Origin: a virus
Length of the DNA stretch: 22,665 nucleotides
Virus record (IMG/VR): IMGVR_UViG_3300050821_004582
Coordinates: 1-22,665 of that record
Reading direction: 5' to 3' (one strand)
The notes below the pieces were generated by a model. That model worked only from the letters and a program-made list of their open reading frames with translations, did no database searches and was not told the origin of the DNA. The position numbers and the translations under genes were made by a program. Shown piece after piece: positions 862 to 22,517 of this stretch (positions are counted from its first letter, which is position 1; the number at the start of each line of letters is the position of its first letter).

Positions 862-1136
862 CACGCGGCCCTCCGCGCAGCTTCCGCCGCATGGGCCGGG
901 AGGATGGCGACGATCAGCCGGACCCTGCGGCCAGACCACTCCAGGCAGGAAACGTGCTTGTGTAGTCCGGCCGGATCGAACCCGCAGTGCATAGCCGCGA
1001 GGAGCAGGTCGGCGTGCTTGCGGTCGGCCTCGACGCCAAGCCAGACGCCGCCGAGGGTGCGCTGGAGTTCCGCCGCACCGATGTATTCGGCGTAGGCCGC
1101 GATGAGGGTGGTCTGGTCGGTGATCGAGCCACGCAT
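861..1136 (-). CDS. Hypothetical protein, 91 aa
   Basis: Start ATG at 1136 and stop TGA at 861-863 both sit in TGATG overlaps with the flanking genes, which is the main support that the frame is real. The protein is mostly helical, with an Ala/Leu-rich N-terminal half (TTLIAAYAEYIGAAELQRTL) and a basic middle (GRRVRLIVAILPAHAAEAARRAA at the end). No membrane segment, signal peptide or known motif is evident. I do not recognise the family. It is probably a small accessory protein of the leftward operon. Confidence 0.65.
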   Translation of the reverse strand: MRGSITDQTTLIAAYAEYIGAAELQRTLGGVWLGVEADRKHADLLLAAMHCGFDPAGLHKHVSCLEWSGRRVRLIVAILPAHAAEAARRAA

Positions 1137-1885
1137 CAGGCGGCCTCCTCTTCAGGTTCCCAGCCCGCCAGCCAGCTGCGGTATTGACGACCACGAACGA
1201 CGTTCATGATGGTGGTGGCGGAGACGCCGTACTTGTCGGCGAGGGCGAAGAAATTGTTGTCCGGCGAGCGGTATCGGTAGGCCGCGCGGATCTCCGCATC
1301 CTGCTCTTCGGTCAGCCGCAGGGTGCCGCGGCGCCGTACGACCATGTCCGCCGCGTTGTCGGCTTGCGTGCCAGCGCGGAGGTGGTCGGAGTTGACGCAA
1401 GGGGGCGTATCGCAATTGTGCAAGACGCCAAGCCCGGCGGGGATCGGACCTTTGACCTGTTCAAAAATCCAGCGGTGCGCCTTGTGGTGGACGCCGCCAT
1501 CTACGAACCTGCCGTATCCCGCGCGATCCCTGGACGCGGTCCACAGATGGCAACCGTTCGGCTGGACGGAGATGTTCGCCTGAAACCGCTCCATGGCCGG
1601 AGCGATCGGGGCGATTTGGCCGTCCCGATGCAGCTTCTGATAGGCGCGGTCGCAAGCTGGACAGAGGCAATGGCGACGAACGATGGCGGCCACGCTGGGC
1701 GCGTAGTCAGCCGCGCAGTGAATGCACGACACCCGATACCCGGCTAGCCAAAGCGAGTGCGCGCGGCTGCGGGCCTCGGCCTTCGCCAGCGACATTGAGA
1801 TGGCGTCGCCAGCTTTCTTTGCGCGCCGCTCTTCAGCTTGGAGGTCGCGGAGGGCGGCCAGGAGTTGGGCGATGCGGGCGGTCAT
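1136..1885 (-). CDS. HNH homing-type endonuclease with zinc ribbon and C-terminal HTH
   Basis: 249 aa from ATG 1885 (TGATG overlap with the upstream stop); an in-frame GTG one codon earlier at 1888 is also possible. Layout: helical basic N-terminus (1-45); a Cys4-type knuckle with C54-x2-C57 and C73/C75-x2-C78; an HNH_3-type nuclease core at about 110-182 (CHLW at 112, HHKAHRW at 133-139, VLHNCDTPPCVNSDHLR at 154-170, N177); then a C-terminal helix-turn-helix at about 190-235 (LTEEQDAEIRAAY...FALADKYGVSATTI). HNH_3 proteins of this form are free-standing homing endonucleases common in phages; they nick or cut DNA at long sites. The same nuclease-plus-HTH design recurs in the 18680-19222 gene, so the two may be related mobile modules. 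Confidence 0.9.
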   Translation of the reverse strand: MTARIAQLLAALRDLQAEERRAKKAGDAISMSLAKAEARSRAHSLWLAGYRVSCIHCAADYAPSVAAIVRRHCLCPACDRAYQKLHRDGQIAPIAPAMERFQANISVQPNGCHLWTASRDRAGYGRFVDGGVHHKAHRWIFEQVKGPIPAGLGVLHNCDTPPCVNSDHLRAGTQADNAADMVVRRRGTLRLTEEQDAEIRAAYRYRSPDNNFFALADKYGVSATTIMNVVRGRQYRSWLAGWEPEEEAA

Positions 1886-2109
1886 CACGCGCCCCTCAGA
1901 CTACGTGCGATACCGCCGCCGATGGCCTCGAACGGAAGTTCGCCATATGCGTTGCGGCTATCTTCGCCGCACGTCGCTTCCATCAGGTCGGCGAGGCGCT
2001 TCAGGCTGATCGCGATGGAGAGCAGCGCTCCATGCTCTGGCGAAGCTCCGTAGTTCCCAGGCTCTAGTCGATCAGCGACCGGCTCCAGTTTGTCATCAGC
2101 CGCGCTCAT
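1885..2109 (-). CDS. Hypothetical protein, 74 aa
   Basis: Start ATG at 2109 overlaps the upstream stop (ATGA) and the stop at 1885-1887 overlaps the endonuclease start. The sequence is acidic at the N-terminus (MSAADDKLEPVADRLEPGNY) with an amphipathic central helix (HGALLSIAISLKRLADLMEA). No recognisable domain or membrane segment. It is supported as a gene by its couplings and normal amino-acid composition; function unknown. Confidence 0.65.
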   Translation of the reverse strand: MSAADDKLEPVADRLEPGNYGASPEHGALLSIAISLKRLADLMEATCGEDSRNAYGELPFEAIGGGIARSLRGA

Positions 2110-7779: not shown

Positions 7780-8915
7780 ACCTGACCATCGAACGCGGGC
7801 CGGCCCTGGCCGCGCTGCGGCGCCTTGCCGATGTCGTGGATCGCAAGTCCACCGTCCCCATCCTGGGCAACATCGCCCTGGCTGCTGAAGGCGGAAGCCT
7901 CTGCCTTCGCGCCACCAACCTAGACATGGAGGCGAGCGAGACCTTCGGGGCCGACGTGGGCCAGGACGGCGCGCTGACTCTGCCGGCCGACAAGCTTCGG
8001 GACATCGTCAGCAACTCCGAGACCGGGTCCCAGATCAGCCTCGCGCTCTCCGAGAACGGGCTTCGCATGGCCGTGAAGTCGGGTCGTTCGCGTTTCAACG
8101 TCGCTGGACTTCCCGCCGAGGACTTCCCGGCGTTCAAGGCCGAGGATTTCGTCTCCGACTTCACCATGTCGGCAAAGACCCTGGCGGACATGGTGACCCG
8201 CGTGGCCTGGGCCATGGAGCGGTCCGACACGCTGCCGTTCGGAAACGTCTACCTGGCCGACCAGGGCGATGAACTGCACGCCGTCGGCGCGGCGCAGACC
8301 GGCATCGCGTTACGCCGCGAGCCGCTGCCCGCCGGGGCGCGCCTCAAGGCCATGATGACGCCGCGCCTGGTCGCCCACCTGATCCGCTGGCTTGGCGACG
8401 ACGAGAACGAGGTCCGCATCCTCGTGACCGGCAGCGCCTACGATGACGACGGCCCGGCGCGCCTCATCCGGTTCGAGCAGCCCGGCTCGGTGCTGACCTC
8501 GAAGCTCTTCGATGCCCCCGCCTATGTCGACTACCTCCGACACATGCCGGCGCCCAGGGAGTTCGTCGCTACGACCGACCAGGACGCCCTGAAGGCCGCG
8601 ATCAAGCGCGTCTTGATCATGTCTGAGGAGAAGTCGCGCCTGATCTCCCTTGGCTTTGCCCCGGGCTCCGTGTCGGTGCGCGTAAGAGGATCCACCCTCG
8701 GCGATGGCGAAGACGAGATCGCCGCCGATTACGACGGTCCGGAAATCCGCTTCCCGCTGTCGGCCGCTCCGCTCCTCGATGCTCTCGAGGCGCTGAAGGG
8801 CGACCGGGTCGAGATCGGCTTCAACGAAAAGCCCGATGGCGACGACGCCAAGGTTTCGATCTCCGCGCCCGTCGATCCGGCCATGTCCTGCTTCCTGATG
8901 AAGTTGAGGGGCTGA
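7776..8915 (+). CDS. dnaN: DNA polymerase III beta sliding clamp, phage-encoded
   Basis: 379 aa, close to the family's usual length. It starts at TTG 7776, overlapping the previous stop (TTGA), with GGAGG upstream. The N-terminus has the clamp pattern: ALRRLADVVDRKSTVPILGN then LRATNLDMEA. Later features also match: LPADKLRDIV, FNVAGLPAEDFPAF, SRLISLGFAPGSVSV, and the C-terminal SCFLMKLRG in place of the bacterial VMPMRL-type end. Three clamp folds are expected at about 1-120, 121-245 and 246-379. The ring tethers polymerase to DNA and recruits partners. Phage copies may favour phage polymerase use or escape host clamp regulation. No phage polymerase is seen in the window, so it probably works with host Pol III. 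Confidence 0.95.
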   Translation: MNLTIERGPALAALRRLADVVDRKSTVPILGNIALAAEGGSLCLRATNLDMEASETFGADVGQDGALTLPADKLRDIVSNSETGSQISLALSENGLRMAVKSGRSRFNVAGLPAEDFPAFKAEDFVSDFTMSAKTLADMVTRVAWAMERSDTLPFGNVYLADQGDELHAVGAAQTGIALRREPLPAGARLKAMMTPRLVAHLIRWLGDDENEVRILVTGSAYDDDGPARLIRFEQPGSVLTSKLFDAPAYVDYLRHMPAPREFVATTDQDALKAAIKRVLIMSEEKSRLISLGFAPGSVSVRVRGSTLGDGEDEIAADYDGPEIRFPLSAAPLLDALEALKGDRVEIGFNEKPDGDDAKVSISAPVDPAMSCFLMKLRG

Positions 8916-10207
8916 TGGCGTTCCATCCGGTCAGCATTCTGGTGGGCGACGTTCGTGAGCGGTTGCGCGAGCTTCCGGCGGACCATTTCGACTGCGTAGT
9001 GACCAGTCCTCCGTACTGGCAGCTCCGCGACTACAACGTCGCCGGCCAGATCGGGCTCGAGCCGACGCTCGCCGAGCACATCTCGGTCCTAGTCGCGGTT
9101 TTCGAAGAGGTTCGGCGCGTCCTGAAGCCGCACGGCACCCTGTGGGTCAACTACGGCGATTGCTTCGCCACGACACCGAACGGCCGGCCGGCCGCCGAGG
9201 GGAAAGCCCTCAGCAGCGATGACCGGACGTTCCGAGACAAGCCCGGCTCAACCATCGGCGGAGGGATCAAAGCCAAGGATCTCTGCATGGTCCCGAACCG
9301 CCTAGCCATCGCACTGCAGGATGCTGGCTGGTGGGTTCGCGGCGAGTGCATCTGGGGAAAACCTAATTCGATGCCGGACTCGTCCGGAGCGCAGCGCCCG
9401 GCCGCCGCGCACGAGAAGATCTTCATGTTCGCCAAATCCGAGGATGCGCCGATCTGGCGCGCCCGCGACACTGGCGAGCTGTCGTTCATCCCCGATCTGA
9501 CAGAGCGCTGCGCCCTGATCACCGATCCCGACCGCACCGGCGCCCGGTGGCTGCGGATCGGCTCCTATTACGACGCCAACGCCGTCCTTCAGGGCCGCTC
9601 TAGCGACGAGGACGCTAACACCTATCGTGGCGGCTCATATGTCGCCGGAGAGCCCGGCCCGCGCGCCGTTCGGGGCAACAAGCGCATCAAGATGCCGGAT
9701 GGATGGGATACGGGGTCCGGTGGTCATGGCTCGCATCACCGCGAGGGTCGCGAGAAGGGCAAGACGAGAGCGGTCGGCCCGCGTCATGAAGGCCACACCA
9801 ACCACACCGGCATAGCCAACACCCCGCGCGGTGAGGGGCGCTTCCTTCGCAACTACGAGCCCGCCCACCTCCAAGTGTGGGAGATCGCGATTGCGCCGTT
9901 CAAGGAGGCGCACTTCGCCACCTTCCCGCCGGAACTCGCAGAGCGGTGCCTGCGTGCAGGCTGCCCAGTCGATGGTCAGGTTTTGGATCCGTTCGGCGGC
10001 GCCGGGACGACCGCCCTAGTCGCGTGGCGGCTCCAGCGCGCCTGCACGCTCATCGAGTTGAACCCCGACTACGCCCAGATCACCCGTCGGCGACTGGAGA
10101 AGGATCAGAGCTTCTTCGCCGACATCCGGGTTTCCGAGCCTGACGCGCCGGCAGCGAAAGCTGAACCGGAGATCATCCATCCCACTATGTTCGGAGATGT
10201 CGCATGA
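8915..10207 (+). CDS. DNA methyltransferase, beta-type (N4-cytosine or N6-adenine)
   Basis: 430 aa from ATG 8915 (TGATG overlap). The catalytic motif IV TSPPYW is at residues 30-35, close to the N-terminus, and the AdoMet-binding motif I is at the C-terminus (DPFGGAGTTALVAWRLQ, about 357-373, followed by IELNPDYAQI). Motif IV before motif I defines the beta class. SPPY is more common in N4-cytosine enzymes and DPPY in N6-adenine ones, so N4-cytosine is slightly favoured but not settled. Residues about 245-310 (around GWDTGSGGHGSHHREGREKG) form a Gly/His/Arg-rich, probably disordered insert. No restriction endonuclease partner is adjacent, so it is a solitary phage methylase, likely protecting phage DNA. 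Confidence 0.93.
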   Translation: MAFHPVSILVGDVRERLRELPADHFDCVVTSPPYWQLRDYNVAGQIGLEPTLAEHISVLVAVFEEVRRVLKPHGTLWVNYGDCFATTPNGRPAAEGKALSSDDRTFRDKPGSTIGGGIKAKDLCMVPNRLAIALQDAGWWVRGECIWGKPNSMPDSSGAQRPAAAHEKIFMFAKSEDAPIWRARDTGELSFIPDLTERCALITDPDRTGARWLRIGSYYDANAVLQGRSSDEDANTYRGGSYVAGEPGPRAVRGNKRIKMPDGWDTGSGGHGSHHREGREKGKTRAVGPRHEGHTNHTGIANTPRGEGRFLRNYEPAHLQVWEIAIAPFKEAHFATFPPELAERCLRAGCPVDGQVLDPFGGAGTTALVAWRLQRACTLIELNPDYAQITRRRLEKDQSFFADIRVSEPDAPAAKAEPEIIHPTMFGDVA

Positions 10208-12153
10208 GCCGCAAGAAGCTCCTTGTGGCGGACCTCCTGTGCGGCGCCGGCGGCTCGTCGACCGGCTGCGAGAGAGCGCTTCGCGACCTCGGCCTGGAGA
10301 TGGAACTGGTCTGCGTGAATCACTGGGACACCGCAATCGCGACCCACACCATGAACCACCCCAAGGCCCGTCACTTCGTCCAGGACATCGCGACCGTCAG
10401 GCCGCACTTGCTCGTTCCCGAGGGCTATCTCGACCTGCTGATGGCCTCTCCCACCTGCACGCACCATTCGGTCGCGCGCGGGGGAAAGCCGACCTCCGAC
10501 CAGCAGCGCAGCGACCCCTGGCACATCATCACATGGCTGACAGAACTTCGGGTCAAGCGGATCATCATCGAAAACGTGTGGGAGTTCACCGGTTGGGGTC
10601 CGGTCGATCCGAAGACCGGCAAGCCGATCCCCGCTCGTAAGGGCGAGTACTTCAACGCCTGGATCGAGACCTTGCGACGCCTGGGTTTCGATCCGGAATG
10701 GAAAAAGCTGAACGCCGCTGACTACGGCGATGCGACCACGCGCCAGCGGTTCATCCTGATGGCCCGCAGCGACCGTCGTCGCGTCGCGTGGCCGATGCCG
10801 ACGCACACCAAGCGGTCAGACGGCGACGGCCTGTCGCTGATGCCTCACATCAAGCCCTGGCGCTCGGCGCGCGAGATCATCGACTGGGAACTCAAGGGAA
10901 AGTCGATCTTCGGCCGCAAAAAGGATCTGGCCCCGAAAACCATGGAGCGCATCTACGCCGGCGCCGTGAAGTTCAAGTGGCCGGAGCCCTATCTGGTGAT
11001 CCTGCGCCAACACATGGCCGGCATGAGCGTCGATGGGCCTCTGCCGGTGATCGCGGCGAACGGCACGCATATCGGTCTCGCGCAGCCGGTCATCGGAAAC
11101 CTGAGGAAGGGCACAGCCCCAGTCAGCGTTGACGCGCCGCTTCCGACCCAGTCCATCCACGCAAGCATGTTCGCGGCCGAGCCGATCATCCTGTCTCAGC
11201 ACAACAGCGGCGCGGCTCGCTCGGCAGGCGACCCATTGCCGACCATCACCACGGGCGGCGCTGGCGCAGAAGATCATCCGGGGTGCGCGCGGCCGATGCT
11301 CGTCGAGCCCTTCATTCTCAGCCGCTTCGGTGAGGGATATGGCGAGACCCGGGCGCACTCGGTCGAAGAGCCCATGCCGACCAGCAGCGCGCGTGGCGCC
11401 GGCTACCTGATCGAGCCCGAGCCCTTCGTGCTTAGCCAGGCGTCCGGCGGCGCGCCGCGCGGCGTAGAAGACCCTATCCCGACCCAGACGGGCGGCGGTT
11501 CTGGCGGCGCGCATGCGCTGATCTCACCATATTACGGGAACGGTTCCGGAGAGACCTGCTGCTCTGATGCGGAACCGCTTCCGACAGTGACGTCCAAGGG
11601 CCGCTTCGGCGTGGTCGTGCCGGTCACTCACTCGACTGGCGGCCATCAGGCTATCGACGTCGAACAGCCTCTCCCGACGCTGACGACGGCCAAGGGTGGT
11701 GAGTTCGCAGTCGTGATGCCGGTGACCCACGACGACGCCAGCGATCGCGTGCGCGACGTCATCGAGCCTCTCCCGACCATCACCGGCGCGAACCGCGGCG
11801 AGTTGGCCTTCATCACCGCCCAGCACGGCGAGCGCCCTGGCCAAGCGCCTCGAGTCCACAGCGTTGACAGCCCCACGCCCACGATTGCCGCCACAGGCCA
11901 CGTCGATCTGGTCGTGACGACCGATGGCTACGACATCCTGTTCCGGATGCTGGAGCCGCACGAGCTGGCGGCGGCCATGGGCTTCACCAGCGACGACCAG
12001 AGCTACGAGTTCGCCGGGACCAAGACCGACCAGATCAAGCAGATCGGCAACGCGGTGTCGGTGGCCAAGATGAAGGCCTGCGTCGGGGCGCTGATGGCCG
12101 ACGCTGTTCCGAGGCCTAGGGCTGTTCAGAAGCCGGCGAGGGCCGCGGCATGA
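10204..12153 (+). CDS. C5-cytosine methyltransferase with nine-unit repeat region
   Basis: 649 aa (typical single-specificity enzymes are about 330-480) from ATG 10204 (ATGA overlap). Catalytic motifs: motif I DLLCGAGGSS (10-19), motif IV SPTCTHHS with the nucleophile C85 (PTC replaces the usual PPC), motif VI ENV (123-125), motif VIII RQRF (180-183) and motif X GNAVS (615-619). Between VIII/IX and X, residues about 278-573 hold nine units of 31-46 residues. Each is built on a P-[LMIT]-P-[TV] core such as EPLPTITG or EQPLPTLTT followed by a short hydrophobic strand such as FAVVMPVTH. A single copy of this unit normally lies at the target-recognition region, so repeated target domains are suggested. 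It is probably a protective or multi-specific DNA methylase. Confidence 0.93.
   Translation: MSRKKLLVADLLCGAGGSSTGCERALRDLGLEMELVCVNHWDTAIATHTMNHPKARHFVQDIATVRPHLLVPEGYLDLLMASPTCTHHSVARGGKPTSDQQRSDPWHIITWLTELRVKRIIIENVWEFTGWGPVDPKTGKPIPARKGEYFNAWIETLRRLGFDPEWKKLNAADYGDATTRQRFILMARSDRRRVAWPMPTHTKRSDGDGLSLMPHIKPWRSAREIIDWELKGKSIFGRKKDLAPKTMERIYAGAVKFKWPEPYLVILRQHMAGMSVDGPLPVIAANGTHIGLAQPVIGNLRKGTAPVSVDAPLPTQSIHASMFAAEPIILSQHNSGAARSAGDPLPTITTGGAGAEDHPGCARPMLVEPFILSRFGEGYGETRAHSVEEPMPTSSARGAGYLIEPEPFVLSQASGGAPRGVEDPIPTQTGGGSGGAHALISPYYGNGSGETCCSDAEPLPTVTSKGRFGVVVPVTHSTGGHQAIDVEQPLPTLTTAKGGEFAVVMPVTHDDASDRVRDVIEPLPTITGANRGELAFITAQHGERPGQAPRVHSVDSPTPTIAATGHVDLVVTTDGYDILFRMLEPHELAAAMGFTSDDQSYEFAGTKTDQIKQIGNAVSVAKMKACVGALMADAVPRPRAVQKPARAAA
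11035..11925 (+). repeat. Degenerate tandem repeat encoding nine PLPT units
   Basis: Protein-level repeat within the C5 methyltransferase. PxPT-type cores occur near 11038, 11132, 11228, 11367, 11468, 11570, 11665, 11764 and 11869, roughly 95-140 bases apart. The DNA copies are clearly diverged, so this is an old or diversifying expansion, unlike the near-identical array at 3-290. Confidence 0.75.
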
Positions 12154-17131: not shown

Positions 17132-17395
17132 ATGCTGTTCAACCCCGACATGGATAAGCGCCTGGCGGACCTGCACACCGCGGCCACGTCGGGCGGCGCC
17201 CTCTCGGCGACCTTCCATCCGGCGTTCGAGCACGACAACACCAAGCAGCCCGCAAGGATCTGGGTCGATATCGCCGAGACCGGCCGACGCCTGGTATTCG
17301 ACGTTCCGACTGCGGAAGCTGTCGCGGGTCAGCTCAAGGCGAACGGGCTTGCGGATGCGGCGGGTGTGATCCTGGCGGCGATTCCGGTGGCGTGA
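17132..17395 (+). CDS. Hypothetical late protein, 87 aa
   Basis: Start ATG 17132, five bases after the previous stop, with AGGA immediately upstream. The product begins MLFNPDMDKRLADLHTAATS and contains a strand-rich stretch ARIWVDIAETGRRLVFDVPT followed by a helix EAVAGQLKANGLADAAGVIL. It precedes the small terminase-like gene. Function unknown; a virion-assembly role is inferred only from location. Confidence 0.6.
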   Translation: MLFNPDMDKRLADLHTAATSGGALSATFHPAFEHDNTKQPARIWVDIAETGRRLVFDVPTAEAVAGQLKANGLADAAGVILAAIPVA

Positions 17396-17397
17396 CG

Positions 17398-17775
17398 ATG
17401 GCGAAGCGTAAGGCCGAGGTCTCTGCACCTACAGAGCCGAAACATAGCGGCCTAATCCCATTCAAGCCGGGCCAGAGCGGAAATCCCGCCGGCAGGCCCA
17501 AGGGATCACGCAACAAGCTCGGTGAGGCCTTTGTCCAGGCGCTCCACGACAGCTTCCAACTTCACGGACCGGCGACCATCGAAACCGTTCGTGTTGAGCG
17601 TCCCCATGAATATCTCAAGGTTGTCGCCTCGCTGCTTCCGAAGCAGATCGAGGTGAAGGAGAGCGCCTTTGATGGCATTGGCGACGAAGAACTCTCCGCT
17701 CTCATCGTTGCCGCCCGCTCAGCTCTCGGTGTTGCTGGAGAGGGCGGAGACAGAGCTACGGACACGACGCACTAG
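17398..17775 (+). CDS. DUF5681-domain protein, small terminase-like
   Basis: 125 aa from ATG 17398; a GTG two codons earlier (17392) overlaps the previous stop and is an alternative. The DUF5681 signature is clear at about residues 20-45: LIPFKPGQSGNPAGRPKGSR then NKLGEAFVQAL. A helical C-terminal part contains VERPHEYLKVVASLLPKQIE and DEELSALIVAARSALGV. Proteins with this motif lie immediately before large terminases and are thought to serve as the small subunit that recognises packaging sites. The end overlaps the large-terminase start by 104 bases. Confidence 0.85.
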   Translation: MAKRKAEVSAPTEPKHSGLIPFKPGQSGNPAGRPKGSRNKLGEAFVQALHDSFQLHGPATIETVRVERPHEYLKVVASLLPKQIEVKESAFDGIGDEELSALIVAARSALGVAGEGGDRATDTTH

Positions 17776-18415
17776 GAACCGCCTGGCGGACTACGTTCCC
17801 TACGCCAAGCAGCTCGAGTTCCACGACGCCGGCAAGGACCACGATGAGCGCCTGTTTATGGCGGGCAATCAGCTCGGAAAGACCTGGGCCGGCGGCTTCG
17901 AGTGGGCGATCCATCTGACGGGCCGCTATCCCAACTGGTGGGAAGGCAAGGTCTTCGACGAGCCGGTTCGCATGTGGGCGGCGGGCGTGACCGGCGAAAG
18001 CACGCGGGACAATCCGCAGCGCATCTTGATCGGGCCTCCGCAGCAGGAAGAGCTGCGCGGAACCGGCGCGATCCCGTTTGACGCACTGAAGGACTGCACC
18101 CCGGCCCGCGGCATCCCGGATGCGCTCGATAGCGCGGTGATCAGGTGGGGCGGGGGAGGGGACGTGCAGGCCAAGGAATCCGTCCTCGCCTTTAAGTCCT
18201 ACGAGAAGGGGCGCCAGAAGTGGCAGGGTGAAACCCTGCACGGCGTCTGGTTCGACGAAGAGCCCCCGGCCGATATTTACAGCGAGGGTAAGACCCGAAC
18301 CAACGCGACGAACGGGATCGTCATGGTGACCTTCACGCCGCTCCTCGGAATGAGCGACGTGGTGTCGATGTTCCTGTCCGACGCCGACCTAGAGCGGATG
18401 ACGAAGGGCCAATGA
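17672..18415 (+). CDS. terL: Terminase large subunit, N-terminal ATPase half (split gene)
   Basis: 247 aa from ATG 17672 (GGAGAG upstream). Packaging motor ATPase: the adenine-binding region LADYVPYAKQLEFH (38-51), Walker A GNQLGKT (65-71), Walker B VWFDEE (192-197, D195-E196) and a coupling motif TFTPLLG (220-226). The frame stops at residue 247 (MFLSDADLERMTKGQ), where an intact terminase would continue into the nuclease domain. The nuclease half is a separate frame at 19219-19953 beyond two inserted genes. The stop overlaps the KTSC gene start (ATGA), so this is a translated, ended protein rather than a random frameshift. The two chains would have to assemble to package DNA. Confidence 0.92.
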   Translation: MALATKNSPLSSLPPAQLSVLLERAETELRTRRTRNRLADYVPYAKQLEFHDAGKDHDERLFMAGNQLGKTWAGGFEWAIHLTGRYPNWWEGKVFDEPVRMWAAGVTGESTRDNPQRILIGPPQQEELRGTGAIPFDALKDCTPARGIPDALDSAVIRWGGGGDVQAKESVLAFKSYEKGRQKWQGETLHGVWFDEEPPADIYSEGKTRTNATNGIVMVTFTPLLGMSDVVSMFLSDADLERMTKGQ

Positions 18416-18633
18416 GCAAGCACCCGACGTTCACGCCGATCAAGTCCTCGATGATGAAGGGCTACCACTACGACCCGGCGAGTAGGGTGCTCACGGTCCA
18501 ATTCCACGGCGGCTCGCCTTACGCCTATGCCGACGTTCCGGCCGAAAGGGTCGCAGCCATGACCGGCGGTAAGTCCGCAGGCTCCTACTTCGCAGCCTGC
18601 ATCAAGCCGCAGCACGCACCGACCAAGTTGTAG
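18412..18633 (+). CDS. KTSC-domain protein inserted in split terminase
   Basis: 73 aa from ATG 18412 (ATGA overlap with the ATPase-half stop). The whole protein is a KTSC domain: FTPIKSSMMKGYHYDPASRV, LTVQFHGGSPYAYADVPAER with the central YAY, then SAGSYFAACIKPQHAP. KTSC is found at the end of some lysyl-tRNA synthetases and as single-domain phage proteins; an RNA-binding role has been suggested but is not established. It probably travelled with the neighbouring HNH gene or was captured at the split point. Confidence 0.88.
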   Translation: MSKHPTFTPIKSSMMKGYHYDPASRVLTVQFHGGSPYAYADVPAERVAAMTGGKSAGSYFAACIKPQHAPTKL

Positions 18634-18679
18634 TAAAAACAATCGAGTAATGCTAGTCTCCAATCGTCAGGAGGCCAGC

Positions 18680-19222
18680 ATGGTTTGGAAATCCTACGTC
18701 GATTGTTCTGACTACGAGGTGAGTGACGCCGGCGAGGTTAGGCGTGTTGTTCGGGTGCTTCCGCGAGGCCGTAGGACCCCCTATCTCCTCTGCCAATTCG
18801 CCGGCTCCAGTGGGTATCTGCAGGTCAGCATGAGCATCGGCGGTGTGGCCTCCAAAGTGATGGTCCACCGGGCGGTGCTAAGAACTTTCGTTGGTGAGCC
18901 GCCGAGCCCTCGGCATGAGGGTGCTCACCTGGACGGCGACATGCTGAGGAATGTTCTCGGCAACTTGGCGTGGGCCACGCGGGCGGAGAATGCGGCCCAC
19001 AAGCTAGAACATGGCACGGCCTATGTACCGCGTGCGCTAACGGCAGATCAGGTCATTGAGATGCGACGGCGCTATCGGGACGAAGACATCTCGTACAAGT
19101 CGCTGGGCCGAGCGTTCGCCGTGTCGGCACCAACGGCGCACGGGATCGTCACTGGCCGGTATTGGCCACACTTGCCCGGCGCCACAGCCAGCAAGCCTAA
19201 GGGCCGAAGGACCGCTGCATGA
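18680..19222 (+). CDS. NUMOD4-HNH homing endonuclease inserted in split terminase
   Basis: 180 aa from ATG 18680, which has a strong AGGAGG five bases upstream. NUMOD4 motif WKSYVDCSDYEVSDAGEVRR (3-22), HNH_3 core with VHRAVLRTF (62-70, H63), HEGAHLDGD (79-87, H83) and NVLGNLAWATRAEN (91-104), and a C-terminal helix-turn-helix (about 119-162, LTADQVIEMRRRY, SLGRAFAVSAPT). The NUMOD4-HNH-HTH layout is that of free-standing homing endonucleases. It lies exactly between the two terminase halves, and its stop overlaps the nuclease-half start (ATGA). AT-rich sequence at 18634-18660 may hold its own promoter. It is the likely cause of the terminase split. Confidence 0.93.
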   Translation: MVWKSYVDCSDYEVSDAGEVRRVVRVLPRGRRTPYLLCQFAGSSGYLQVSMSIGGVASKVMVHRAVLRTFVGEPPSPRHEGAHLDGDMLRNVLGNLAWATRAENAAHKLEHGTAYVPRALTADQVIEMRRRYRDEDISYKSLGRAFAVSAPTAHGIVTGRYWPHLPGATASKPKGRRTAA

Positions 19223-19953
19223 CGCGCCATGTGACTTTCATGGAAATCGGCGACGCAGAGCACTATACCCCGGAGCGCCGCGCTGAGATCATCGCCGGCT
19301 ATCCGCCGCATGAGCGCGAGGCCCGGGCCAAGGGCATTCCGGTTCTGGGCTCAGGCCGCGTCTTCCCGGTCGCCGAAGAAGAGATCCGCTGCGATCCGTT
19401 CAAAATCCCTGACCACTGGCCGCAGATCAATGGCCTGGACTTCGGCTGGGATCACCCGTTCGGCGCCGTGAACTGCGCCTGGGACAAGGACGCCGACTGC
19501 TTCTACGTCTGCAAGGAGTACACGGCCCGGGAAACCACGCCGCTGATCCACGCGGGTTCGATCAAGCCCTGGGGTTCCTGGATACCCACCGCGTGGCCCC
19601 ACGACGGGCTGCAGCACGACAAGGGCTCCGGTGAGGTTCTCGCCAAGCAGTACGGCGCTCACGGCCTGAACATGCTGCCCGAGAAGGCCACGTTCGAGGA
19701 TGGCGGAAACGGGGTCGAGGCGGGAATCCTCGACATGCTGGACAGGATGCAGACCGGGCGCTTCAAGGTCTTCTCGACGTGCGGCGGCTGGTTCGGTGAG
19801 TACCGGCTCTATCACCGCAAAGACGGCCTCATCGTGAAGCTGAAGGACGATATCATCTCGTCCAGCCGCTACGCGCTGATGATGAAGCGCCACGCGATCA
19901 TCAGGCCGAACCGGACGGCCGCGATCAAGATTGCGGCGTTCGGGGCGGTCTAG
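19219..19953 (+). CDS. terL: Terminase large subunit, C-terminal nuclease half (split gene)
   Basis: 244 aa from ATG 19219 (ATGA overlap). It begins MTRHVTFMEIGDAEHYTPER, the sequence that in unsplit relatives directly follows the ATPase domain. The RNase H-like nuclease has three likely metal-binding acids: D74 in GLDFGWDHPFGA, D129 in WPHDG and D210/D211 in KLKDDIISSSRYALMM. The linker motif YPPHEREARAKGIPVLGSGR (28-47) is also family-typical. This half cuts concatemeric DNA during packaging. It is a complete open frame with its own start, which argues that the split form is functional rather than decayed. Confidence 0.92.
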   Translation: MTRHVTFMEIGDAEHYTPERRAEIIAGYPPHEREARAKGIPVLGSGRVFPVAEEEIRCDPFKIPDHWPQINGLDFGWDHPFGAVNCAWDKDADCFYVCKEYTARETTPLIHAGSIKPWGSWIPTAWPHDGLQHDKGSGEVLAKQYGAHGLNMLPEKATFEDGGNGVEAGILDMLDRMQTGRFKVFSTCGGWFGEYRLYHRKDGLIVKLKDDIISSSRYALMMKRHAIIRPNRTAAIKIAAFGAV

Positions 19954-19960
19954 GGTGTCG

Positions 19961-20052
19961 GGAGCCGAGCGGGATTCGAACCCGCGACCCTCCAGCTACT
20001 CACGCCACCACAGCGCTTTGGCCATTCGCTCTGCCTTCTGAGCTACCGGCGG
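19961..20052 (-). tRNA. tRNA-like element, probably degenerate
   Basis: On the minus strand a perfect T arm (GCGGG TTCGAAT CCCGC, plus-strand 19969-19985) and a perfect D arm (GCTC AGAAGGCA GAGC, plus-strand 20028-20043, with TA before it) are spaced as in a long-variable-arm (class II) tRNA of about 91 nt. The acceptor stem pairs only over its inner five positions (GCCGG with TCGGC), no CCA is encoded, and no canonical anticodon stem can be drawn in the 42 bases between the arms. It is probably a tRNA pseudogene or tRNA mimic lying between terminase and portal. The flanks at 19954-20132 show no gene. Confidence 0.5.
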
Positions 20053-20132: not shown

Positions 20133-22517
20133 ATGGCCTATACCGACGCGGAAGTCCTGGCGTTCGTCAGCGACGAGAAGAAGCGCTCCATCGGCTTCAG
20201 CATCAACGCCAACTCGGCGGAACTGGTCGCCGACCGCGAGCGGGCGCTGAACTACATCAAGGGCGACGTGTCGCAAGACGTGCCGTCATTGCCGAACCGC
20301 TCTTCCGTTGTCTCCACCGATGTCGCAGACACCATCGAGACCTGGCTTTCCGATATGGTGGAGATCCTGGCCGGCGGCGAGGACGTGGTGACGTTCCGCC
20401 CCAACGGCCCACAGGACGAAGCCTCGGCCCGGCAAGAGACCGACTACGTGAACCATGTGTTCTTCAACGAGAACGCAGGCTTCATGACGCTGTACACCAT
20501 GCTGAAGGACGCGGGTCAGACCAAGACCGGCGTCGTGACGTGGTGGGAAGAGGCTTGCCCCGAGGTCGAGCCGACCCATTTCGAGGGGCTGACGGAAGCC
20601 GCGCTGGGGCTGATCTCCAGCCAGGACACCGACGAATACACCATCGAGAACGTGCGGCCCTCCGAACAGCAGGGGCCGCCCCAGATGGACCCGATGACGG
20701 GTCAGCCGATCCCGACGCAGCTTTTCGACGCCGATATTGTCCCGAAGCCCCGCAAACGCGCTCGTGTCGCCGCGGTGCCCCCGGAGGACTTCTCCGTCGC
20801 CGCCGACACGGTGCGCCTGGCGGAGACCACCTACTGCGCGATGAAGTCCCGGCCGCGGGCTCAGGACCTTATCGCCGATGGCGTCGATCCCGACATCGTT
20901 GACCAGATCGCCCCGTTTGGCAGTTCCACCGACATCGAGGTGCTGGCCCGCGATACGGCCGGCGAACACACCGGCGGCATCAACCAGGGCGGCAATGGCG
21001 AACTGCGCCAGGTCGAGATCACCAAGCACTATATCCGCCTGGTGGACGTACCTGAGGCCAAGCCGCGCATCTGGATGGTGCGGACCTCCAACGATGATGC
21101 TCTGCTGATCGACAAGGAGGAGGTGGACGAAATCCCCTTCGCCGCGATCACGCCCTATCCGGTGACCCACAGGTTCTACGGCGAGTCTATCGCCGACAAG
21201 ACCATGGAGCCTCAAAAGATCCGCACGTCGCTGACGCGGATCGCGCTCGACAGCGCCTACTTCGCGCAGAACCAGCGGATGGAAGTCGCGGAAGACCAGT
21301 CCAGCGACAACACCATACCCGACCTGCTTCGCAATGAGCCCGGGATGCCGATCCGCTCCAAGAGCGGGAACGCGGTGCGCCCGGTCCAAGCCGGATCGCT
21401 GGGCTTCGATCCGTTCAACGCCTTGGAATACTTCGCAACCGTCGTCGAGGCCCGCACCGGCGTCGTCCGCAATGCTCAGGGCCTGAACCCCGACACGCTG
21501 CACGACACCGCCTCGGGCGCCGGGATGCTCGCCACCGCGGCCCAGAAGCGCGTCAGGCTCATGGCCCGCATCTTCGCCGAGACCGGGATCAAGGATCTCT
21601 ACCTCGGCCTTCACGCCCTGCTGCGCCGCATCGGCGGCATGACCGACACCATCCGCCTTAACGGACAGTGGCAGAACATCGACCCCACCAAATGGGGCCA
21701 GCGCGACGACATGACCGTTGAGGTTGGCGTCGGCTCGTCCGGCAAAGCCCAGGACATGGCGATGCTGGGCATGATCATCGAGAAGCAGGCGCAGGCCGTG
21801 CAGATGCAGGGGGGCGCCACGGGTCCGCTCGTCAATCTGGCGAACCTCTACGCCTCTGCGATCCGCCTCACGCAGAAGGCCGGTTTCAAGGACGCCGAGA
21901 CCTTCTGGACCGACCCGGCCCAGCAGCAGCCGCAGAAGCCGCCGACGCCGGAACAACAGGCGCAGATGGCCGACGCCCAGAACGACCAGGCCAAGGTGCA
22001 GATCGATCAGGGAAAGCTAGCCCTGGAGCAGCAGGCCCAGCAGGCCAAGGCGCAAGCCGAACAGACCAAGTTGGAACTGGAGCAGCAGAAGCACGTCATC
22101 GGCGCTCAGTTCGACGCGGCCAAGATCGAGATAGATCAGCGTCGCATCGCCCTGGACGAGCAGAAGCTTCAACTGGACATCCGGGAGCGCGACCGAGCCC
22201 ACCAGATCGCGATGGCCAAGATCGAGCTGGAGGCCCGGCACGCCCGGGACAAGCTGGACAGCGAGAACGCCCTGAAGCTGGCGGCGATCAACGCCCAGTA
22301 CCAGACCTCGGTCACGGTCGCCTCCATCAAGTCGGACGCCGAGGAGTTCCGCGCCCACGCCGACGTGGCGATGCAGGCCGCCGAACATCAGCACGCCCAC
22401 GCCCTTGCCGAACAGGAACACGCGCACGGACTGGAGCAGACGACCCTTGCCGCCGATCTCCACCGCGAGCCGGTGACGGAAGCCGAGGCGGATGAAGTCG
22501 AGGACGACGAGAAATGA
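20133..22517 (+). CDS. Portal protein, P22-like, with long coiled-coil tail
   Basis: 794 aa from ATG 20133 (AGGGAG upstream), near the length of P22-type portals. The N-terminal portal pattern is clear: RSSVVSTDVADTIETWLSDM, VEILAGGEDVVTFRPNGPQD and ETDYVNHVFFNENAGFMTLY. Then come a clip/stem-like central part, YGESIADKTMEPQKIRTSLT and an ARTGVVRNAQGLNPDTLHDT segment typical of this family. Residues about 610-780 are Gln/Ala/Lys/Glu-rich with heptads (GKLALEQQAQQAKAQAEQTK), predicted to form an alpha-helical barrel or coiled coil as in P22. Twelve copies form the vertex through which terminase pumps DNA. It is followed by an ATGA-coupled gene. A long open frame on the opposite strand is a shadow. 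Confidence 0.9.
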   Translation: MAYTDAEVLAFVSDEKKRSIGFSINANSAELVADRERALNYIKGDVSQDVPSLPNRSSVVSTDVADTIETWLSDMVEILAGGEDVVTFRPNGPQDEASARQETDYVNHVFFNENAGFMTLYTMLKDAGQTKTGVVTWWEEACPEVEPTHFEGLTEAALGLISSQDTDEYTIENVRPSEQQGPPQMDPMTGQPIPTQLFDADIVPKPRKRARVAAVPPEDFSVAADTVRLAETTYCAMKSRPRAQDLIADGVDPDIVDQIAPFGSSTDIEVLARDTAGEHTGGINQGGNGELRQVEITKHYIRLVDVPEAKPRIWMVRTSNDDALLIDKEEVDEIPFAAITPYPVTHRFYGESIADKTMEPQKIRTSLTRIALDSAYFAQNQRMEVAEDQSSDNTIPDLLRNEPGMPIRSKSGNAVRPVQAGSLGFDPFNALEYFATVVEARTGVVRNAQGLNPDTLHDTASGAGMLATAAQKRVRLMARIFAETGIKDLYLGLHALLRRIGGMTDTIRLNGQWQNIDPTKWGQRDDMTVEVGVGSSGKAQDMAMLGMIIEKQAQAVQMQGGATGPLVNLANLYASAIRLTQKAGFKDAETFWTDPAQQQPQKPPTPEQQAQMADAQNDQAKVQIDQGKLALEQQAQQAKAQAEQTKLELEQQKHVIGAQFDAAKIEIDQRRIALDEQKLQLDIRERDRAHQIAMAKIELEARHARDKLDSENALKLAAINAQYQTSVTVASIKSDAEEFRAHADVAMQAAEHQHAHALAEQEHAHGLEQTTLAADLHREPVTEAEADEVEDDEK

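Follow-up and report, generated by a model that had tools for sequence, protein, structure and literature searches.

When an endonuclease gene lies between the two halves of an essential phage gene, was the gene split by the endonuclease, and do the halves still form an enzyme? This question is raised by a locus in an IMG/VR virus record (IMGVR_UViG_3300050821_004582), in which the large terminase (TerL) is encoded by two open reading frames with a KTSC gene and an HNH gene between them. The window, which is the whole stretch of DNA that was analysed, has a length of 22,665 bases and is probably a fragment, since no end repeats are listed for the record. The first-pass annotation of this DNA considered that the KTSC and HNH genes had split TerL by their insertion. 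In this work, we compared the locus with its relatives, and the explanation that we prefer, with a probability of about 82%, is that TerL is made as two non-covalent chains after an old fission and that the KTSC and HNH genes were inserted later at an ATGA seam.

Results

The genes of the locus are arranged in the order DUF5681, TerL-N, KTSC, HNH, TerL-C, a tRNA-like gene on the minus strand and portal (Table 1). The DUF5681 gene overlaps the start of TerL-N, and a homolog of it is found immediately 5' of TerL-N in most relatives. All four reading frames from TerL-N to TerL-C are open as first annotated, and the ATGA overlaps at the TerL-N/KTSC and HNH/TerL-C junctions are both present. The four-gene layout was retained in its genes and order, with a corrected start of the HNH gene, which is most likely at 18680 (with GGAGG just 5') rather than at 18650. 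The gap between the KTSC and HNH genes is 46 bases. Elsewhere in the window, a C5-cytosine methyltransferase of 649 aa (10204-12153, plus strand) has its conserved halves parted by several hundred residues of SVDxPLPTxxxx-type repeats, and an N6/N4 DNA methyltransferase (8915-10207, plus strand) has about 150 extra residues within its catalytic domain. A further HNH_3 endonuclease, whose C terminus is possibly Mor-like (1136-1888, minus strand), is distant from the terminase.

Table 1. Features of the terminase locus, in window coordinates
Feature	Position	Strand	Evidence
Probable small terminase subunit (TerS; DUF5681)	17392..17775	+	DUF5681 2.2e-10; role from position
TerL-N, ASCE ATPase core chain, 247 aa, C-term ...RMTKGQ*	17672..18415	+	Terminase_6N, phrog_31467, alignment
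Walker A GNQLGKT	17864..17884	+	alignment
Walker B and catalytic glutamate VWFDEE	18245..18262	+	alignment
ATPase coupling motif TFTP, just 5' of the break	18329..18340	+	alignments
Left edge of insert, ATGA: TerL-N stop / KTSC start	18412..18415	+	L002 empty-site comparison
KTSC-domain protein, cargo	18412..18633	+	PF13619 3.8e-16
HNH homing-endonuclease-like protein, free-standing, NUMOD4-like N terminus, cargo	18680..19222	+	PF13392, phrog_59, SD GGAGG
Right edge of insert, ATGA: HNH stop / TerL-C start	19219..19222	+	L002 empty-site comparison
TerL-C, lid subdomain and RNase H-like nuclease chain, 244 aa	19219..19953	+	Terminase_6N, Terminase_6C, 4DKW
RHVTFMEI, strand after the broken loop in the intact model (L193 residues 251-256)	19225..19248	+	
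Nuclease motif GLDFGWD	19432..19452	+	alignment
Nuclease motif WPHDG	19594..19608	+	alignment
Nuclease motif KLKDD	19837..19851	+	alignment
tRNA-like gene, anticodon unresolved	19960-20052	-	between TerL-C and portal, antisense to packaging operon
Portal protein, 3' of TerL-C	20133..22517	+	SU10_portal 1.4e-154

The two halves together encode the Walker A, Walker B, coupling and RNase H-like nuclease motifs of a P22-like terminase (Terminase_6), not as one polypeptide with ATPase and nuclease but in two reading frames that differ in phase and are 803 bases apart. TerL-N matches Terminase_6N (1.6e-19) over model positions 1-153 of 215 and also phrog_31467 (2.4e-43), and TerL-C matches positions 163-214 of the same 215-position model, followed by Terminase_6C (1.4e-22). 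The structure of the P22 nuclease domain (4DKW) aligns to TerL-C (5.4e-64) starting at its residue 43. Because the break falls inside Terminase_6N (153-160 versus 161-163 of 215) and about 43 residues before the nuclease domain, it is not at the ATPase/nuclease boundary, where the first-pass annotation had placed it. In alignments with intact relatives no conserved residues are missing at the seam, and the catalytic residues are invariant across 15 diverse split relatives, with the Walker A of L68 as the exception.

The position of the cut was examined further in an AF2 model of an intact relative, L193 (pLDDT 85.8, pTM 0.63), whose fold matches the P22, D6E, T4, Sf6 and P74-26 terminases. The seam corresponds to modelled residues 240-250, in a predicted loop leading from the helix after the coupling motif (233-239) to a strand (251-256), beyond which two helices (266-285) and then the nuclease are predicted. 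Since a PDB sequence-profile search gave 4DKW as its only match, the seam was placed on D6E and Sf6 by counting residues from the coupling motif, and not by residue-by-residue mapping. The D6E terminase has its linker to the nuclease at 230-241 and the lid residues Y213 and R224 (PMC5727402), and by this count the seam is close to the D6E ASCE/lid boundary. The model thus puts the break in a loop of the ATPase domain, past the coupling motif but short of the lid subdomain, and since the seam lies before the lid, the ASCE motor core would be one chain and the lid with the nuclease the other. An AF2 model of TerL-C alone was poor (pLDDT 57.4), with its first eight residues at low confidence and not folded as a strand; as the whole of this model is poor, it is at most a suggestion that the first strand of TerL-C needs TerL-N.

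Loci with relatives of either half were collected from IMG/VR and from genomes and were scored by whether the halves share an open frame. Among the IMG/VR loci, which include the window's own copy (L001), 92 of 141 were split and 49 intact; the named genomes gave 43 split and 32 intact loci out of 75, and overall, of the 222 relatives in which both halves occur, 135 have the break at this seam. Clustering at 88% identity left 48 split and 53 intact representatives. The split appears to be widespread among mostly alphaproteobacterial phages and prophages, and it is not an assembly artefact, because the finished chromosomes NZ_CP034448, NZ_CP015318 and NZ_CP042425 also carry it.

The form of the seam varies among these relatives. 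In L002, whose N and C proteins are 78% and 85% identical to those of the window, the halves meet at a bare ATGA junction and the spacer is absent, as it also is in L003 and L004, and an exact 4-base stop/start overlap was found in 33 of the 135 split loci. In the main group TerL-N stops soon after GMSDVVxxFL and TerL-C opens with M[ST]RHVTxMTIDDAEHYTPE, while the intact relatives read TFTPLLGMSxVVxRFLxExSPDRHVTxMTIDDAEHYT across the same place, with a loop of variable length there. In L005-L008 the halves overlap by 16 bases. The start position of TerL-C in these loci (e.g. L005:1676, L008:3039) has ATC and not ATG, in sequences that still differ mutually; either this is a rare ATC start or translation restarts at MMTIDD, 18 bases on. 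In Mesorhizobium prophages (L084, L090, L105, L110, L160, L180) the stretch between the halves is 100-2600 bases long and contains varied, unrelated genes (bestrophin, solute-binding protein, HEAT-like proteins), so the seam takes cargo readily there as well. Two very distant relatives, L066 and L069, have TerL split near the same place, with the halves of L066 being 967 bases apart; these splits are possibly independent fissions.

The insert of the window was then the subject of a separate comparison. Its second gene matches HNH_3 (9.4e-06, over the cut-off) and the HNH family phrog_59 (1.2e-27), and its protein combines an HNH fold with a NUMOD motif outside any intron, as a free-standing NUMOD4-HNH homing endonuclease does, the NUMOD4 match being weak (0.0023, below its cut-off). 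The HNH protein has no relatives in IMG/VR and the KTSC protein has one, which is weak (47%). It had been proposed that TerL was intact until the gene of this HNH homing endonuclease inserted itself and so divided it, as was reportedly the case for mobE in nrdA of Aeromonas phage Aeh1. The HNH gene does sit between the halves, and homing endonuclease genes cluster near phage terminase genes (PMC10448857). However, the search for relatives without the insert, which the first-pass annotation had suggested, found L002, L003 and L004 with TerL already split; no KTSC or HNH match occurs in the seam of any other collected locus, so that dozens of split lineages do without them, and the window is not adjacent to intact relatives in the tree. 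An insertion by the HNH gene as the cause of the split is thus highly improbable. Because the nearest relatives split at the same place without the insert, the two genes would have landed in an older seam, and the insert is best described from these sequences as a late, window-specific arrival. Both ends of the insert carry ATGA, as if the seam had received the cargo without loss of either overlap, and such cargo would be tolerated because nothing must be read across the seam.

A packaging role of the HNH protein, and not homing, would concern the insert only and is compatible with a two-chain TerL. In HK97 an HNH protein acts with terminase at cos (PMC10448857), and the gene of the window lies inside the terminase operon. 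We find this role quite unlikely, as the protein, which is of the HNH_3/NUMOD4 type, is related to HNH proteins and homing endonucleases of other phages, and as an HNH gene is absent from the seam of the relatives.

Rejoining of the halves was considered at the level of RNA, protein and translation. In other phages terL is interrupted by introns that are spliced (PMC12363816, PMC10448857), as in Jug phages and ICP1, and the insert could be a group I or II intron of this kind. A comparison of the window and 17 split relatives with Rfam detected no intron, the reading frames occupy almost all of the insert, and the relatives with a bare ATGA overlap have no room for an intron. The earlier view that no intron separates the halves is supported by these results, and splicing is extremely improbable. 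A split intein was ruled out: the N halves nearly always have tails of 3-30 aa and the C halves begin with M[ST]RHVT, extensions that are too short for inteins, so the protein is not spliced either. Programmed ribosomal frameshifting might fuse the halves in relatives where the spacing is short and the frames overlap, but TerL-C starts 4, 8 or 1 bases inside TerL-N or 5, 37 or 100-2600 bases beyond it. The frames therefore differ, the overlaps of 4 and 8 already setting the C half in different frames; the window itself has 803 bases between its halves, and a scan with a frame table of the split loci found no conserved slippery site. We give this mechanism hardly any credence.

The simplest account of these sequences is that the halves are translated separately, with ATGA coupling in the ancestral form. 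An SD-like motif precedes the downstream half in 29 of 48 split loci; at the corresponding site of intact genes it occurs in 7 of 41 (Fisher p 3.5e-5), and the background is 63/480. In the window, the 3' end of the HNH gene provides TerL-C with an upstream GAAGGA of its own.

Purifying selection acts on both halves: dN/dS is at most 0.21 in every computable split pair, and synonymous distance was saturated in one pair. No second TerL, and no other Terminase_6 protein, was found in the window's record, which is probably partial, or in 13 split relatives of up to 60 kb, whose records may be incomplete as well. The split TerLs could be dead or served by the TerL of another phage. The C half is truncated in several Mesorhizobium prophage loci, and some split loci are therefore decaying; for the split group as such, pseudogenisation is very unlikely given the strong selection on both halves, the invariant catalytic residues and the enrichment of SD-like sites. 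The sequence comparisons thus agree with the first reading of two apparently functional half-genes and a likely two-chain packaging motor.

In the tree, the window, L002, L003 and L005 form a clade with full support (100/100). On the 76-row tree the split or intact label changes at least five times (bootstrap range 4-6; shuffled mean 24.5), and the AU test weakly rejects the grouping of all split rows in one clade (p 0.038). When the tree is rooted towards P22, split lineages stand near the base with intact ones nested among them. This pattern may reflect one early fission that was followed by re-fusions, or else a number of fissions. L137 and L142 are 91% identical in their N halves and 76% in their C halves, a mismatch that hints at recombination at the seam. 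The Mantel correlation of N and C identities was 0.51 for split and 0.78 for intact loci, but since the two sets span different divergence, these values were left out of the argument.

Discussion

The position of an endonuclease gene between two half-genes does not imply that it caused their separation. In the explanation preferred here, TerL-N would carry the ASCE core, with Walker A, Walker B, the catalytic glutamate and the coupling motif, and TerL-C would carry the lid (transmission) subdomain and the nuclease. The two chains would be products of one operon with separate translation, in the ancestral form through termination-reinitiation at the ATGA overlap, and would assemble non-covalently into the packaging motor. 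The fission would be old and common to a broad range of phages and prophages, most of them alphaproteobacterial, and the KTSC gene and the homing-type HNH gene would have entered exactly at the ATGA seam in this phage. What the sequences show is the split, its recurrence, the purifying selection on each half and the signals for translation; co-expression of the chains, their binding to one another and DNA packaging by them are inferred.

According to proposed models of TerL mechanics, motion driven by ATP is passed on from the ASCE core, through the lid subdomain, to DNA or the nuclease (PMC5727402). A lineage that is cut between core and lid offers a natural experiment on the need for a covalent connection. 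A further idea, tentative and rather unlikely, is that the lid-nuclease is a separate, exchangeable subunit of the ASCE ring, with fission and re-fusion repeated at this seam; if so, association and exchange of the chains could regulate translocation and headful cutting.

The results also bear on annotation, in which such halves may readily be mistaken for two terminases or for a broken gene. In PHROGs, phrog_31467 (261 positions) and phrog_5653 (199 positions) match TerL-N and TerL-C separately, and the former, whose extent is limited to the ATPase half, is annotated as being of unknown function. The half-sequences were thus known but unexplained; our comparison identifies phrog_31467 as the ATPase half of TerL, and it can be renamed. 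No description of a splicing-free two-gene TerL was found in the open-access literature that was searched.

Among known systems, the closest is P22 gp2 with the other Terminase_6 proteins, which share 45-53% identity with both halves and the same motifs, besides the alignment of 4DKW over TerL-C. The window differs in this from P22 and from every cultured relative that was checked, where TerL is a single chain: the gene is intact in P22, Rhizobium phage RHph_N2, Achromobacter CF418P1, Microcystis MJing1 and Vibrio Phriendly, as it is in the metagenome-derived ctDrO704, and no cultured phage was found by identity inside the split group. The Jug phages and ICP1 also have an interrupted TerL coding region, but their halves are rejoined by RNA splicing, whereas the group of the window has no intron and often no spacer. 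In Aeromonas phage Aeh1, the free-standing HNH gene mobE is said to split nrdA into two halves. The analogy that was drawn with this case holds for the outcome, namely an HNH gene between the halves of an essential enzyme that is expected to work as two chains, but not for the cause, since the split of the window predates the endonuclease and exists in relatives without it; the locus does not belong with essential genes split by a homing endonuclease. The packaging ATPase gp16 of phi29 is a chain that, like TerL-N, bears no nuclease; phi29 has no TerL nuclease, whereas the window keeps it as a second chain, together with the lid. On our best reading of the sequences, the locus encodes a splicing-free two-gene TerL that would act as a natural two-chain motor.
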